IMG/VR virus record: IMGVR_UViG_3300044646_000914
Coordinates: 1 to 23,346 of that record
DNA: 23,346 nucleotides
Strand: one strand, 5' to 3'
Origin: a virus
The position numbers and the translations under genes are program-made. Of this stretch, positions 3,524 through 15,272 are shown in pieces. Numbering within the stretch: the first letter of the stretch is position 1; the number at the start of each line of letters is the position of its first letter. Under the pieces are notes generated by a model, which was not told the origin of the DNA, did no database searches, and saw only the letters and a list, made by a program, of their open reading frames with translations.

Positions 3524-4723
3524 ATGACATGGATTCTACCTCGTCAGTTACACACATTGGCCTGTGCGCTGGATACGGAGGCATTGAGCTTGGACTCCAG
3601 CGAGCAATCCCAGATCTGCGCACAGTCGCTCTTTGTGAGATCGAAGCCTTCGCCATCAGCAATCTGGTTGCGAAAATGGAAGCGGGACTCATGGACCCAG
3701 CACCTATCTGGCCGAATCTTAAGACCTTCCCTTGGGAAGCATTTCGTGACCGCGTGGACATCCTCACTGGGGGATATCCATGCCAGCCCTTCAGCGCAGC
3801 CGGTCAACGTAAAGGAAAACAAGACCCGCGGCACCTCTGGCCGTGGATTGCAGATGGCATTCGACTTCTCAGACCACGGATCTGCTTCTTTGAGAACGTC
3901 GAAGGACATATCAGCCTGGGGCTGTCCGACGTCATTGAAGACTTGGCAGGAATGGGTTACAGAACGACGTGGGGCATATTCAGCGCGTCTGAAGTCGGCG
4001 CACCGCACCAGCGAAAGCGGGTGTTCATCCTGGCCGTCTCCAGTAGCTTCAGAGGTGCGGCAGGGCTTTCAGGATCGCTCCAGAGGCATGAAGGGGAGTC
4101 AGGAGAGTCTGACGACGGTGGTTGTGAAGTCATGGCCAACGCCGGCAGCCAGGGACCACAAGGACACTGGGGAGAACGTGGACATGAAGAAGGTGGCAGC
4201 GAAATCCAAACTGGCGGGATTCGTTGCAGTGCATGGCCCAGCCGTCCCGGCGAGCAGCAGTACGGATGGGAGCCGCCAAGGGTTGTGGCAGACAGCCACG
4301 GTATCGACCGGAGCGCACAAGCAGAAGGACGGGAGCATGATCGACAAGCTGGACAGGCAGGTGAAGAGCTGGGCGACGCCGGATGCAAGCGACAGGAGGA
4401 GCGACAACTGCCGTCAGGTTGGTCTGAGCAATCAGATCAAAACATGGCCGACACCAGCATCATCGGGAGTGACGGGAGGCCCGACGGGACTAGCTGGGGG
4501 AGCCGGGAACCGGGAGAAGCTGGCGAAGATGCTGCCGGATGCGGAGGCGAGAGCAATGGGATGCGGCAAACTCAACCCGCGTTGGGTGGAGACGCTGATG
4601 GGGCTGCCGGTGGGATGGACTATGCCGAGCTGTGCGTCTCCGGTGATAATCGAACGGACGAACTCAGACTGCTCGGGAATGGAGTCGTGCCGGCAACAGC
4701 GGAACGAGCCTTCCGAGTGCTGA
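3524..4723 (+). CDS. Long +1-frame overlapping ORF across the methyltransferase gene (putative overprinted protein)
   Basis: A 399-codon open frame starting 5 nt before the methyltransferase ATG and covering nearly the whole gene in the +1 frame. It is not a simple shadow: the product has a Trp/Arg-rich N-terminal half (TWILPRQLHTLACALDTEAL; IWLRKWKRDSWTQHLSGR). It also has several repeats of a SWPTPxAxD motif (SSWPSPVAS, KSWPTPAARD, KSWATPDASD, KTWPTPASS) and an ending LNPRWVETLMGLPVGWT. I recall similar motifs in annotated phage and metagenome proteins near dcm genes, but cannot verify that here. AGGAA lies about 5 nt from this ATG. It may be a real overprinted protein, a conserved by-product of the methyltransferase frame, or an annotation artefact in databases. 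Confidence 0.4.
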   Translation: MTWILPRQLHTLACALDTEALSLDSSEQSQICAQSLFVRSKPSPSAIWLRKWKRDSWTQHLSGRILRPSLGKHFVTAWTSSLGDIHASPSAQPVNVKENKTRGTSGRGLQMAFDFSDHGSASLRTSKDISAWGCPTSLKTWQEWVTERRGAYSARLKSAHRTSESGCSSWPSPVASEVRQGFQDRSRGMKGSQESLTTVVVKSWPTPAARDHKDTGENVDMKKVAAKSKLAGFVAVHGPAVPASSSTDGSRQGLWQTATVSTGAHKQKDGSMIDKLDRQVKSWATPDASDRRSDNCRQVGLSNQIKTWPTPASSGVTGGPTGLAGGAGNREKLAKMLPDAEARAMGCGKLNPRWVETLMGLPVGWTMPSCASPVIIERTNSDCSGMESCRQQRNEPSEC

Positions 4724-4758
4724 TGAAAGAGCTATACACCGCCCCGGCTGTCAGCTAG
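3529..4758 (+). CDS. dcm: C5-cytosine DNA methyltransferase (Dcm family)
   Basis: A 409-residue DNA (cytosine-5) methyltransferase that moves a methyl group from S-adenosylmethionine to cytosine. Motif I is GLCAGYGGIELGL (residues 11-23). Motif IV is GGYPCQPFSA with catalytic Cys85. Motif VI is FENVEG (ENV at 122-124), motif VIII is QRKRVFIL (161-168) and the motif X region is LLGNGVVPATAERAF near residue 380. The region between VIII and X is rich in Gly, Glu, Gln and Ser with scattered MA(N/D)(A/T) and VADS repeats, not a clear target-recognition fold, so specificity cannot be read. No restriction endonuclease is adjacent; it is probably an orphan phage enzyme that protects DNA from host restriction. 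Third-position GC is less uniform than in the structural genes, and a second frame overlaps the gene. Confidence 0.92.
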   Translation: MDSTSSVTHIGLCAGYGGIELGLQRAIPDLRTVALCEIEAFAISNLVAKMEAGLMDPAPIWPNLKTFPWEAFRDRVDILTGGYPCQPFSAAGQRKGKQDPRHLWPWIADGIRLLRPRICFFENVEGHISLGLSDVIEDLAGMGYRTTWGIFSASEVGAPHQRKRVFILAVSSSFRGAAGLSGSLQRHEGESGESDDGGCEVMANAGSQGPQGHWGERGHEEGGSEIQTGGIRCSAWPSRPGEQQYGWEPPRVVADSHGIDRSAQAEGREHDRQAGQAGEELGDAGCKRQEERQLPSGWSEQSDQNMADTSIIGSDGRPDGTSWGSREPGEAGEDAAGCGGESNGMRQTQPALGGDADGAAGGMDYAELCVSGDNRTDELRLLGNGVVPATAERAFRVLMKELYTAPAVS

Positions 4759-4903
4759 GGAGCGGCCTGTCGACGTGAGCTGTAGGAGGTGAGCGTCGAA
4801 ACCAACTGAAGGCATGACAAATTTTATCCCCACCACCACAGGCATTCGCAGCTCCTTCCTGCGATCTCCTACCCTGTGACTGGTGGGGATTCTTATTTGA
4901 CCC
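4759..4903 (+). promoter_or_regulatory. Structured noncoding leader before the initiator gene
   Basis: This 145-nt gap is unusually long for the early module. It holds a 6-bp stem (4770-4775 with 4794-4799) whose loop displays GTAGGAGG, then a larger nested stem-loop at 4826-4890. The loop sequence GTAGGAG (4782-4788) is exactly complementary to CTCCTAC (4866-4872) in the bulge of the second structure, so a long-range or pseudoknot pairing is possible. The initiator ATG follows 14 nt after the second structure with no Shine-Dalgarno. It may be an attenuator, translational control element or terminator. No convincing sigma70 promoter was found. Confidence 0.5.
4826..4890 (+). terminator. Three-tier stem-loop; possible terminator or control hairpin
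   Basis: Three nested perfect stems are visible. ATCCCCACCA (4826-4835) pairs with TGGTGGGGAT (4881-4890), CACAGG (4837-4842) with CCTGTG (4873-4878), and TCGCAG (4846-4851) with CTGCGA (4859-4864). The terminal loop is CTCCTTC, which resembles the anti-Shine-Dalgarno end of 16S rRNA. The stem is preceded by AAATTTT and followed by TCTTATTT, so it could end transcription after the methyltransferase. The T-tract is interrupted, so control of the initiator gene is equally possible. Confidence 0.5.
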
Positions 4904-5599
4904 ATGATAATCGAACCCGACTTCTTAGATCACTGGAAGACCCGCCTGCTGATGCGGCTGCTCGACACCGAGGCAGCCCCAAACTACGTCATCCGACTCT
5001 GGTCTCATTGCCAGACCCGGAAGACAAACAAGTTCCCGGAATGGAGCCCGGCCATTCTGGCATCGGTCTGCCGATGGCCCGGTGATGCTGATCAGTTCTG
5101 GTCTGCAATGATGCAGACATTCTGCCGGCACGAAGATGGACACCTGATCGCTCACGAGTGGGACGAGGTGAACGCCAGCCTGATTGCTGCCTGGTCCAAT
5201 GGAGGCAAAGGAGGGCGCCCAAAGAAACCCATGGGTAACCCACGGGTTAACCCAGAATCGAATCCGGTTAACCCACGGCTAACCCATGGGGTAACCGATA
5301 GAGAAGATAGAGAAGATAAGACAGAGAAGATACAGGCGGACAAGCCGCCCACCGCTCGTTTCCAGAAGCCTACGCTCGAAGAGCTGACTGCTGAAGCCAT
5401 TAAGATCGGCCTACCCATCACCGAGGTCGACAAGTTCTGGAACTACTACGAGTCCAACGGTTGGAAGGTTGGAAAGAACCCGATGAAGTCCTGGCCTGCT
5501 GCCTTGAGGAACTGGTTGTCTCGGCTCAATGCTTCCCCCGATGGGTCCGGTAAGTCCGGCGGGCGGAAATTTACAAACAGCATCGCCGACTACCAATGA
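4904..5599 (+). CDS. Replication initiator or helicase-loader-like protein
   Basis: A 231-residue protein placed directly before the DnaB-type helicase (4-nt overlap). The N-terminal part (1-95) looks like a winged-helix DNA-binding domain (MRLLDTEAAPNYVIRLWSHC, then FPEWSPAILASVCRWPGDAD). A Gly/Lys linker (NGGKGGRPKKP, 99-109) leads into a Pro/Asn-rich repeat (110-130) and a charged run (TDREDREDKTEK). The C-terminal motif FWNYYESNGWKVG...MKSWPAALRNWLSR (178-207) is one I associate with phage replisome organisers. The linker DNA carries phased repeats and a purine tract, as in the lambda O gene, whose origin lies inside the initiator gene. The role is inferred from layout; the start lacks a Shine-Dalgarno. 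Confidence 0.7.
   Translation: MIIEPDFLDHWKTRLLMRLLDTEAAPNYVIRLWSHCQTRKTNKFPEWSPAILASVCRWPGDADQFWSAMMQTFCRHEDGHLIAHEWDEVNASLIAAWSNGGKGGRPKKPMGNPRVNPESNPVNPRLTHGVTDREDREDKTEKIQADKPPTARFQKPTLEELTAEAIKIGLPITEVDKFWNYYESNGWKVGKNPMKSWPAALRNWLSRLNASPDGSGKSGGRKFTNSIADYQ
5226..5297. repeat. Iteron-like repeats; candidate replication origin inside the initiator gene
   Basis: Five copies of AACCCA begin at 5226, 5237, 5249, 5270 and 5281. Four extend to a form of AACCCAYGGSK; the one at 5249 is degenerate. The spacings of 11, 12, 21 and 11 nt are close to one or two helical turns. Perfect palindromes occur at the junctions (ACCCATGGGT at 5227-5236, GGGTTAACCC at 5244-5253, GGTTAACC at 5266-5273). Helically phased repeats within the initiator linker are the hallmark of lambda-like iterons that bind the initiator dimer. 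Function is inferred; the repeat is directly visible. Confidence 0.6.
5298..5333. other. Purine-rich strand-asymmetric tract beside the iterons; candidate unwinding element
   Basis: Directly after the repeats the + strand is almost pure purine with T and few C, built from repeats of GATAGAGAA and AGAGAAGAT. It is locally much richer in A+T than its surroundings. In lambda the iterons are followed by an A+T-rich region that melts when the initiator binds, and this tract occupies the same place. It encodes the charged DREDREDKTEK run, so protein-level low complexity is an alternative explanation. Confidence 0.45.
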
Positions 5600-6891
5600 G
5601 CGACCCCTACTTTGCCCAGGACGACGAGTACGGCCTCATCGGCGCCTGTCTTTCCGGTGGTTCGGATGTCTGTCACGAGGTGTTCGCCAAGATCCCGACT
5701 GCAGCTATCCAGCACGACAAGTTGCGCTGCCTGTACGAGATCACCAAAAGCCTGGTCGCCAAGACCGAGCCGGTCAACCTGACGACGGTGGTCAAAGAGT
5801 GGCAGCGCTCAATTCCTCAGATTACCCCACCATTTGAGGAATTGAACAAGGCAGACGAGCTGTGTCCCAGCCCGGCCAATCATCCGGCCTTCTCCCAGGC
5901 TGTCCTAGAAGCCTACCATAGACGCCAGCTCAGAACCGCTGGAGACCGTCTGATCCGTGAGTCTGCTGTCTCCACCCTCTCCGTCGATCAAATCGTCTCC
6001 AATGCCGAAGCAGGGCTCACCGTTGAGGCATCTAAAGAGGAGGTGCAATCGTCCAAGTCCGTTGTCAGCCGTTTCATCGACTCCACACAGGAAAGATTCT
6101 CAAGGCAGGGCCAGCTTTCCGGGATCACCTCGGGCTTCCACAGGCTCGACCAGATGACCGATGGGTTTCAATACGGTGAGCTGGCCATCATTGCAGCCCG
6201 ACCCAGCATTGGGAAGACAGCCATTGCCATCGCCATTGCCAAGGCAGCAGCCATCGACTCCCGTATACCCACCCTGTTCGTTAGCCTGGAGATGTCCGAC
6301 GAGTCCATCGTGCGCCGTATGGTCTCGGCTATTGGCAGCATACCAATGCAGGACATCAAGACCGGCCAGCTCGACCAGGGAGGAATGAAGGCAATGTCCA
6401 GTGCATCAGCCAAGATCGCAGGCAGCCCCATCCATTTTGTGTCCGGTTCATCTGTATCGAACATCGCAACGATCACCGCGGTAATCCGCCGTGCTGTACG
6501 CAAGTGGGGCGTGAAGCTGGTGCTGGTCGACTATCTGCAAAAGATCCACGGCAGTAGGGCTGCAGAGAAGAAAACGTATGAGATTGCAGAAGTTTCGGGC
6601 AGACTCAAAGGCGTGGCCTCTGATACCAAGACAGCCGTGGTTGCCCTGGCCCAGCTCAATCGGGAGAACGAGAAGGACAAAGGCCGAGTACCTCGGCTCA
6701 CCGACCTGGCCGACTCCGGGCAGATTGAAAGGGACGCTGACCTTGTGTTACTGCTCAACCGTGAACGCCATGAGGCCCAAGGTGAGGCTGTGATCGCCAT
6801 CGCCAAACAGCGAGACGGTGAGTGCGGCCTGGTTCCTCTGTGGTACGACGGCCAGTACTGCCGCTTCACCGACCCGCCCCCGATCTACTGA
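5596..6891 (+). CDS. dnaB: DnaB-type replicative DNA helicase
   Basis: A 431-residue hexameric 5'-3' DNA helicase of the RecA-like DnaB family, the motor of the phage replication fork. The N-terminal helical domain (about 1-150) includes DEYGLIGACLSGG. The C-terminal ATPase has Walker A ARPSIGKTAIA (201-211), the catalytic segment LFVSLEMS (227-234), Walker B KLVLVDYLQ (307-315), the LAQLNRE sensor (351-357), DSGQIERDAD (373-382) and the AIAKQRDG arginine-finger loop (401-408). The Walker A has Ile where most relatives have Gly or Met (RPSIGKT). The length is normal for the family. It overlaps the initiator gene by 4 nt and the next gene by 1 nt (TGATG), which fits a replication operon. Confidence 0.95.
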   Translation: MSDPYFAQDDEYGLIGACLSGGSDVCHEVFAKIPTAAIQHDKLRCLYEITKSLVAKTEPVNLTTVVKEWQRSIPQITPPFEELNKADELCPSPANHPAFSQAVLEAYHRRQLRTAGDRLIRESAVSTLSVDQIVSNAEAGLTVEASKEEVQSSKSVVSRFIDSTQERFSRQGQLSGITSGFHRLDQMTDGFQYGELAIIAARPSIGKTAIAIAIAKAAAIDSRIPTLFVSLEMSDESIVRRMVSAIGSIPMQDIKTGQLDQGGMKAMSSASAKIAGSPIHFVSGSSVSNIATITAVIRRAVRKWGVKLVLVDYLQKIHGSRAAEKKTYEIAEVSGRLKGVASDTKTAVVALAQLNRENEKDKGRVPRLTDLADSGQIERDADLVLLLNRERHEAQGEAVIAIAKQRDGECGLVPLWYDGQYCRFTDPPPIY

Positions 6892-14157: not shown

Positions 14158-15219
14158 ATGCCCCTACTTCAGCCCAACCAGGGCGGCTCTGTGCCGCTCG
14201 CTTCAACCTCCGCCGCTCGTGAAGATCTGGCGGATTACATCGCCATCGTCGATGCCAAGTCGACCCCGTTCGTGTCCATGGCCCCTAAGGGCCGTGACAT
14301 CGGCAATATGCAGTTCTCTTGGCAGGTCGATAACTACGGCGCCCCCGTGCTCGCCGGCGTGGTCGACGGCACCGACGTGACCGTTGCCAGCGCCTCGAAC
14401 CCGGTGGTCAACCGGACCCGCTTGAACAACTACGGCCAGGCCTTCCGCCGGGACCTGCGCATCGGTTTCATCGCCGAGACTCAGGACGTTGCTGGTGTGA
14501 CCGATGAGTTGGCCAACGGCATTGCCAAGAAGCTCGTCGAGATCAAGCGCGACATGGAGTCGACCTTCATGTGCACCAACCAAGCTGCCCAGGCCGACAA
14601 CGGTTCGAGCAACGCCTACCTGACCGGCTCCCTCGGCAACTGGCTGACCAGCACCAACGCCTCGAACATCGGTGCGTGCGCTTCCGGTTCGCCCTTCCTG
14701 CCGGCCTCCGGCGCGGTTGACACCACGGCTTCCGCCTCATTCACTGAGGCGACCGCTCAGAACGTGCTGACGGCCATCTACAGCGCCACCGGCACCTTCC
14801 GGGACTACGATTGTATCCTGGGCACCACGCTCAAGCGTGCGTTCACCAACCTCACGGCCTCGGGTGTTACCCAGGTTGTCAACGCCAACAGCATCGCTGC
14901 CACCAGCGTCCGTACCTTCAACCAGGACCTGTCCAGTGATAGCTTCAAGGCGTCCATCGACATTTTCGAGGGCGACTTTGGTCGCTTGATCCTGCACCCG
15001 TCCACCTTTGTCGGTGGCAAGACCAGCACTTCCCTGACCGCCCAGGCCTTCAAGGGCTACGTCATCCCGATGGACATGGTCGAGGTGCGCTACGCCAAGC
15101 TGCCCCAGGTCAAGGATCTGCCTGACGCCGGTGGCGGCCCTGCCCGCCTCGTTGAGGCCATTGCCGGTCTGGTTTGCAAAAACCCGTCGGGCTTTGGTAT
15201 GTTCAACGGCGCGAGCTAG
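14158..15219 (+). CDS. Major capsid protein (SU10-type HK97 fold)
   Basis: A 353-residue shell protein, preceded by AAAAGGA. N-terminal features fit the SU10 major capsid family: REDLADYIAIVDAKSTPFVS (21-40), then NMQFSWQVDNYGAP, and a central helix (VEIKRDMESTFMCTNQAAQA) equivalent to the family's long spine helix. The later Ala/Thr/Ser-rich region (ALLGTLKRAFTNL-like segment, then FEGDFGRLILHPSTF) and the ending LPQVKDLPDAGG also fit. The HK97 fold is inferred from family membership, not visible directly. Codon use is strongly GC-ending and regular, as expected for a highly expressed gene. A strong terminator follows directly, and scaffold precedes by 3 nt. Confidence 0.88.
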   Translation: MPLLQPNQGGSVPLASTSAAREDLADYIAIVDAKSTPFVSMAPKGRDIGNMQFSWQVDNYGAPVLAGVVDGTDVTVASASNPVVNRTRLNNYGQAFRRDLRIGFIAETQDVAGVTDELANGIAKKLVEIKRDMESTFMCTNQAAQADNGSSNAYLTGSLGNWLTSTNASNIGACASGSPFLPASGAVDTTASASFTEATAQNVLTAIYSATGTFRDYDCILGTTLKRAFTNLTASGVTQVVNANSIAATSVRTFNQDLSSDSFKASIDIFEGDFGRLILHPSTFVGGKTSTSLTAQAFKGYVIPMDMVEVRYAKLPQVKDLPDAGGGPARLVEAIAGLVCKNPSGFGMFNGAS

Positions 15220-15232
15220 TCTTAGTTTCAAC

Positions 15233-15272
15233 GGGGGAGGTCCACTCCGGGCCTCCCCCTCTTTCCTTTCTC
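15233..15272 (+). terminator. Rho-independent terminator after the major capsid gene
   Basis: GGGGGAGG (15233-15240) pairs perfectly with CCTCCCCC (15252-15259) around an 11-nt loop, followed by a T-rich tract TCTTTCCTTTCTC to 15272. It sits 13 nt after the capsid stop and next to the next start codon. Such a terminator would lower transcription of downstream genes relative to the capsid gene, which is common in phages. Confidence 0.75.

Follow-up and report, generated by a model that had tools for sequence, protein, structure and literature searches.

What occupies the junction between the early genes and the replication operon of this phage, and how might it act on the genes behind it? The sequence analysed, here called the window, is a virus record of 23,346 bases, and all element coordinates are window positions on the plus strand. 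The replication operon opens with a putative initiator gene, whose product matches PHROG 9474, 15768 and 28809 (E 2e-7 for PHROG 9474, replication initiation protein) and none of the Pfam families, and continues with a DnaB-like replicative helicase. Within the initiator gene, a cluster of TAACCCAYGG repeats in both orientations (5225-5301), which holds all three exact copies in the window, is followed by a GA-rich stretch extending to about 5336, and repeats and stretch together have the sequence of a likely lambda-O-like replication origin. The gap ahead of the initiator had been described in a first-pass annotation as a structured noncoding leader, either a switch controlling initiator synthesis or a terminator.

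The secondary structure given there is present in full: a 6-bp stem (P1), a three-tier stem-loop with helices of 10, 6 and 6 bp (P2, P2b and P3) capped by a CTCCTTC loop, and a GTAGGAG motif in the P1 loop that is exactly complementary to CTCCTAC (helix K1; Table 1). The 3′ strand of K1 is unpaired in the minimum-free-energy (MFE) structure of the window. Folding also bears out the stability expected of such an RNA, with an MFE z-score of -4.0 for 4768-4903 and only one of 200 shuffled sequences equally stable. However, other leaders have z-scores anywhere from -1.2 to -4.6, and the case must rest on comparison and not on energy by itself. Two features go beyond the earlier description, a U-tract behind P2 and a second tertiary helix, K2, that joins the P3 loop to bases ending a few nucleotides from an invariant ATG. 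In the window alone K2 amounts to 5 bp (GAAGG/CCTTC) and is not significant by itself; it is claimed because of the relatives. A further helix, P0, which would join codons 2-4 of the leader ORF to the sequence ahead of the gene start, occurs in the MFE structures of several leaders and is not claimed, as it looks poorly kept in others (e.g. L211).

Table 1 Features of the leader element and of the first two genes of the operon behind it.
Feature	Position	Strand	Description
Folded leader element	4770-4903	+	Conserved across uncultured phage contigs
P1 hairpin	4770-4799	+	TCGACG 4770-4775 / CGTCGA 4794-4799; 8-nt loop
K1, 5′ strand	4782-4788	+	GTAGGAG, in P1 loop
K2, 5′ strand	4808-4812	+	GAAGG, immediately upstream of leader-ORF ATG
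Leader ORF	4814-4879	+	MTNFIPTTTGIRSSFLRSPTL; 21 codons + TGA (4877-4879)
P2, 5′ strand	4826-4835	+	ATCCCCACCA; 10 bp with P2 3′ strand; window MFE and covariation
P2b, 5′ strand	4837-4842	+	CACAGG; 6 bp
P3 hairpin	4846-4864	+	TCGCAG 4846-4851 / CTGCGA 4859-4864, 6 bp; loop CTCCTTC 4852-4858
K2, 3′ strand	4854-4858	+	CCTTC, inside P3 loop
K1, 3′ strand	4866-4872	+	CTCCTAC, between P3 and the 6-bp stem, directly 5′ of P2b 3′ strand
P2b, 3′ strand	4873-4878	+	CCTGTG; window MFE and covariation
P2, 3′ strand	4881-4890	+	TGGTGGGGAT; window MFE and covariation
U-rich tract	4891-4899	+	After P2; terminator-like
Putative replication initiator	4904-5599	+	MIIEPDFLDHWKTR...; first gene of the operon; PHROG 9474
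DnaB-like replicative helicase	5596-6891	+	Second gene of the operon

Relatives were collected by a search with the initiator protein, which returned 61 viral loci, by a deeper alignment-based search that added more, and by two DNA-pattern scans that added loci not selected via the initiator. These loci yielded 92 distinct leaders belonging to one subfamily, and 27 divergent representatives were aligned for covariation analysis (alignment A2). The covariation check against homologous phage regions proposed in the first-pass annotation came out clearly, with 95.0% of 1071 cells paired, as compared with 81.3% after column shuffling and 38-47% when partner strands were slid by 1-3 columns. Double-sided changes were found at 29 of 40 pairs (shuffled mean 14.6; none of 500 shuffles reached as many), a count that treats sequences rather than independent evolutionary events, and all five covariation measures exceeded all 500 shuffles. 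Shared inheritance is unlikely to be the sole cause, because the lineages are divergent and the pair types many. Cells with G-U outnumbered those with A-C by 44 to 12 overall and by 32 to 3 in the nested stems, which points to plus-strand RNA as the conserved molecule. A conserved, pseudoknotted plus-strand RNA before the initiator is thus strongly supported by the sequence comparison.

All seven helices covary individually. In P1, helices 1 and 2 are paired in 93% and 100% of cells, the stem gains outer pairs in relatives, and a G.A-rich internal loop is followed by two inner pairs, GC/GC in some leaders and GG/CC in others, a GC/CG swap of an inner pair. P2 (helix 5) was counted at 89%, an underestimate because alignment A2 shifts P2 of the window's clade by one column, while P2b (helix 6) reached 97% with four of five pairs double-changed and P3 (helix 7) 100% with all five. 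K1 is paired in all 27 representatives (100%), with compensatory changes at five of its seven pairs and the other two invariant, and occurs as several alleles (GTGAGAA/TTCTCAC, CTAGGAA/TTCCTAG, GTAGGAA/TTCCTAC, GTAGGAG/CTCCTAC and GTGGAAA/TTTCCAC). Similarly, K2 is paired in 91.2% of cells and double-changed at all seven pairs that it forms across relatives.

In a second subfamily (L041/L055, L096/L098, L097, L252 and L296), which has diverged much further, the parts follow one another in the same order but their sequences differ. Its K1 pairs (GTGAGAA/TTCTCAC, TTCGCAC/GTGCGAA, TTTGCAC/GTGCAAA and GTAGCGT/ACGCTAC) all match at seven of seven positions, a 14-bp P2 runs into a P2b of 6-7 bp directly 3′ of K1, and K2 spans 4-7 bp, with its partner 3′ of P3 and not within the P3 loop. 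In Rfam 15, no family matched the window at its gathering score, the best sub-threshold score for 4700-4960 being 14.6 bits against a cut-off of 50, and four leader variants had no nucleotide match among named phages. Under stricter filters and without a positive control, searches for prophage copies returned none in 300 genomes from the order of an Aquabacterium genome (G041) and none in 288 genomes from the phylum of a Limisphaerales genome (G043). A 26.5-bit match in a Limisphaerales genome (L316) appears to be unrelated sequence lacking the hallmarks of the element. No description of the element appears in the literature covered, which was incomplete.

The label noncoding fits only in part, since the structured gap also contains a short leader ORF (4814 to a stop at 4877-4879) that is conserved in relatives. 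It is present in all 92 distinct leaders, mostly with 28-40 codons as compared with 21 in the window, and its ATG lies between P1 and P2 in every representative and is invariant in alignment A2. Across the 92 leaders the ORF ends between -24 and +56 nt from the next start, mostly at -3, -1, +4, +17 or +26, the +4 stop being partly automatic because all these genes begin with ATGA; in L040, L044 and L047, among others, it overlaps the ATG of the next gene. In nearly all relatives the end of the ORF meets or overlaps the start of the gene behind it. In the window it stops 24 nt before the initiator, inside the 3′ strand of P2b. In each of 18 representative leaders compared, the stop of this frame falls between -31 and +17 nt relative to the gene start, whereas the other two frames often end far away. 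In many leaders one of these two is nevertheless open as well, owing to the high GC content of the region, so openness of the ORF alone is weak evidence. Indels shift the frame of the second half of the peptide in some phages (L163, L071 and L036) without closing the ORF or moving its end away from the start of the gene, and the simplest reading is that translation, not the peptide, is under selection. The sequence thus points to a translated leader ORF. A conserved signalling peptide is ruled out by the same indels, and a frameshift or read-through fusion to the next gene by the variable frame relation between ORF and gene (-3, -1, +4, +17).

The initiator does lack a Shine-Dalgarno motif, as first noted, but this is no special feature of the gene, since the whole phage is without such usage: SD-like motifs precede 2 of 20 phage genes, as compared with 3 of 20 at a control position, which suggests that the host initiates translation without them. 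What does set the leaders apart is their 3′ end: ahead of the next gene, the 92 leaders contain 6.3 T per 10 nt, as compared with 1.9 per 10 nt ahead of 462 other genes on these contigs, and the two distributions hardly overlap. This U-tract is kept although three different reading frames cross it, and it directly follows a GC-rich stem, the sequence arrangement of an intrinsic terminator. An exception is the pair L041/L055, which lacks the tract and in which the gene starts further downstream, behind a G-rich stretch. P2 ends 13 nt before the initiator ATG, a distance at which direct occlusion of that start would be partial. Three relatives without the leader (L043, L045 and L046) have a plain intrinsic terminator and a Shine-Dalgarno motif at the same junction. 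Elsewhere in the window, a strong intrinsic-terminator-like hairpin (15233-15259; GGGGGAGG...CCTCCCCC followed by TCTTTCC) stands right after the gene at 14158-15219, which is capsid-like by position, and the phage therefore seems to use such terminators.

The view of the element as a control of initiator synthesis was right about the structured RNA before that gene and too narrow about its target. The leader follows the early genes (exonuclease or methyltransferase) and precedes the replication operon, and it occurs exactly once in each of the 36 records with a match, which rules out several copies per genome with orthogonal loops. The first gene behind it varies (the initiator of the window, a DUF1376 protein, an HNH-like protein, a 70-aa protein, a C5 methyltransferase and others; the HNH label and some other names were assigned by eye), which excludes an initiator-specific element, and maps of sufficient length show a putative initiator, belonging to one of three types, and usually a DnaB-like helicase further downstream. 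Because the leader heads the operon before several unrelated first genes, it would control the operon and not one initiator, and since the K1 allele is also independent of the gene behind it, the element is best described as a regulatory cassette of the operon. Several features of the surrounding junction may be noted. Depending on the phage, a C5-methyltransferase gene may lie on one side of the leader or on the other (10183-11013 in L139; 3529-4758 in the window), and HNH-like genes occur directly behind it in L137, L152 and L296, marking the junction as a hot spot of gene exchange. Many phages also carry, 9-10 nt ahead of P1, a tail of some 8-9 in-frame codons that closes with TAG (window 4720-4769; the same stretch in L011, L016, L019 and L022), and it is present even where the upstream gene had stopped earlier in that frame.

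On this sequence evidence, the element is probably a switch gated by its leader ORF, a terminator combined with translational coupling that would serve as the 5′ cis-regulatory leader of the replication operon. In the nascent transcript P1 would fold first, leaving the start of the leader ORF open. Once P3 and the following strand emerge, K2 would close that start, and K1, formed between the P1 loop and the strand 3′ of P3, would lock P1 to the stack on P2b in a compact double-pseudoknot fold. P2 would then zip up beside the U-tract, RNA polymerase would stop or slow, and the start of the next gene would be crowded. A ribosome that loads on the leader AUG before K2 closes would instead melt P2, P3, K1 and K2 by translating the leader, allowing transcription to read through, and on terminating beside or over the next start codon it may reinitiate there, such that the replication operon would be expressed only when the leader is translated. 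We infer the folding order, the attenuation, the coupling and any signal that tips this balance. The covarying helices, the G-U excess, the conserved ORF with its start beside K2 and its end near the next gene, the U-tract, the single copy per genome and the constant position at the operon head count in favour of the gated switch, as do the leaderless relatives with their plain terminator and Shine-Dalgarno motif at the same junction, while the early ORF stop and 5-bp K2 of the window, the missing U-tract in L041/L055, the weakness of ORF openness as evidence and the partial occlusion by P2 count against it. Switch and terminator, presented at first as alternatives, need not exclude each other: stem and U-tract do resemble a terminator, and the leader ORF lies inside it.

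It is possible, if rather unlikely, that the switch is purely translational, with the fold occluding the leader start and partly the operon start, coupling alone setting expression, and the U-tract keeping the ribosome-binding region unstructured. An open, A/U-rich start region is important in hosts without Shine-Dalgarno use, and both the missing motif in this phage and the leader stops that adjoin or overlap the gene start would fit. However, a T-rich stretch ahead of the start is not shared by the other genes on these contigs (1.9 versus 6.3 per 10 nt), and the U-tract begins right where the stem ends, the arrangement seen in terminators. Control of the plasmid kind appears unlikely; here the loops would be bound by an antisense RNA acting in trans on P1, or by a phage or host protein, and this partner would decide between K1 and repression, with K1 alleles as specificity tags. 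Such control is known for replicons with a pseudoknot and leader peptide (PMC8125031, PMC10724649) and would account for several co-varying K1 alleles that are independent of the downstream gene, but with G-U allowed, strands from different alleles still pair at 5-7 of 7 positions, so such tags would be leaky. Less probable still is an ordinary intrinsic terminator between the early (methyltransferase/exonuclease) and replication operons, with the replication genes served by their own promoter or by leak-through. Stem, U-tract and the plain terminator at the same junction in relatives lacking the leader agree with this, yet P1, K1, K2 and the conserved ATG and ORF would be unneeded and are kept across very diverged sequences, and a promoter scan of the window, using a sigma-70 consensus that may not be the host's, found no such site. 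A single-stranded DNA element (origin or recombination site) is very improbable, although it would adjoin the initiator gene at a junction where modules exchange, as the far greater tolerance of G-U than of A-C fits plus-strand RNA and the likely repeat-containing origin lies elsewhere, inside the initiator gene.

The element may, tentatively, represent a phage RNA switch of a new class: a loop lying within the leader ORF would fold back on the ORF's own start and close it, a second kissing helix would lock the fold, and the intrinsic terminator would be built from the ORF itself. Such a device would act as a co-transcriptional timer, with the operon switched on only when a ribosome loads early enough, and as a portable cassette whose loops diversify while downstream genes are swapped.

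The nearest known parallels are plasmid systems. Initiator control of the IncI-alpha/IncB/IncL-M type, as in ColIb-P9 repY-repZ, was reportedly described by Asano and Mizobuchi in 1998. As in those systems (including IncL/M repB-repA with RNA I), the phage leader has a 5′ hairpin whose loop forms a pseudoknot with a downstream strand, and its leader ORF is short and ends at or near the next start. In IncL/M and related plasmids, initiator expression depends on the pseudoknot and is translationally coupled to a leader peptide (PMC8125031; PMC10286972; PMC10724649). In contrast, the phage element has no sequence relation to these leaders that we could find, its first genes differ, and the initiator of the window is not homologous to their RepA/RepZ in PHROG and Pfam comparison. 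The plasmids transcribe their antisense RNA I opposite the 5′ hairpin; in the window a sigma-70 scan, which may not reflect the promoters of the host, showed no promoter-like site. In the predicted fold the K1 partner is unpaired inside a long stem, whereas in the plasmids the leader ribosome has to release a partner that is otherwise sequestered, and the phage element adds the U-tract and K2, which would close the leader ORF's own start.

In IncFII plasmid R1, tap-repA is controlled by the antisense RNA CopA. There, translation of the leader ORF, and not its product, reportedly permits initiator synthesis (Blomberg et al. 1992, cited in PMC5304414). The phage leader ORF likewise appears to be kept for translation and not for its product; R1 is not known to have tertiary contacts like K1 and K2. 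REx-C modules of Pseudomonas plasmids are self-contained combinations of stem-loop and leader peptide before different rep genes (PMC5304414). They resemble the phage leader as a portable stem-loop and leader-ORF module before different genes, but they are plasmid-borne and unrelated in sequence, no pseudoknot is inferred for them, and an antisense RNA is proposed. In ribosome-mediated attenuators of the trp/pyrBI type, a leader ORF overlaps an intrinsic-terminator-like stem and U-tract, as it does here. Unlike these, the phage leader has no run of control codons, its amino acids are not conserved, and tertiary helices would close the leader start.

The phage element thus plausibly works like the pseudoknot and leader-peptide control of plasmids without being a member of that group. 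Such initiator control is already known from plasmids; here a distinct and strongly covarying version is the standard head of a phage replication operon, suggesting that phages, too, arrived at this solution, by way of another RNA. In a phage group without Shine-Dalgarno use, the element bears on how the translation of one operon is gated, and it forms a compact natural device whose leader start, kissing loops and terminator can be separated for individual tests.
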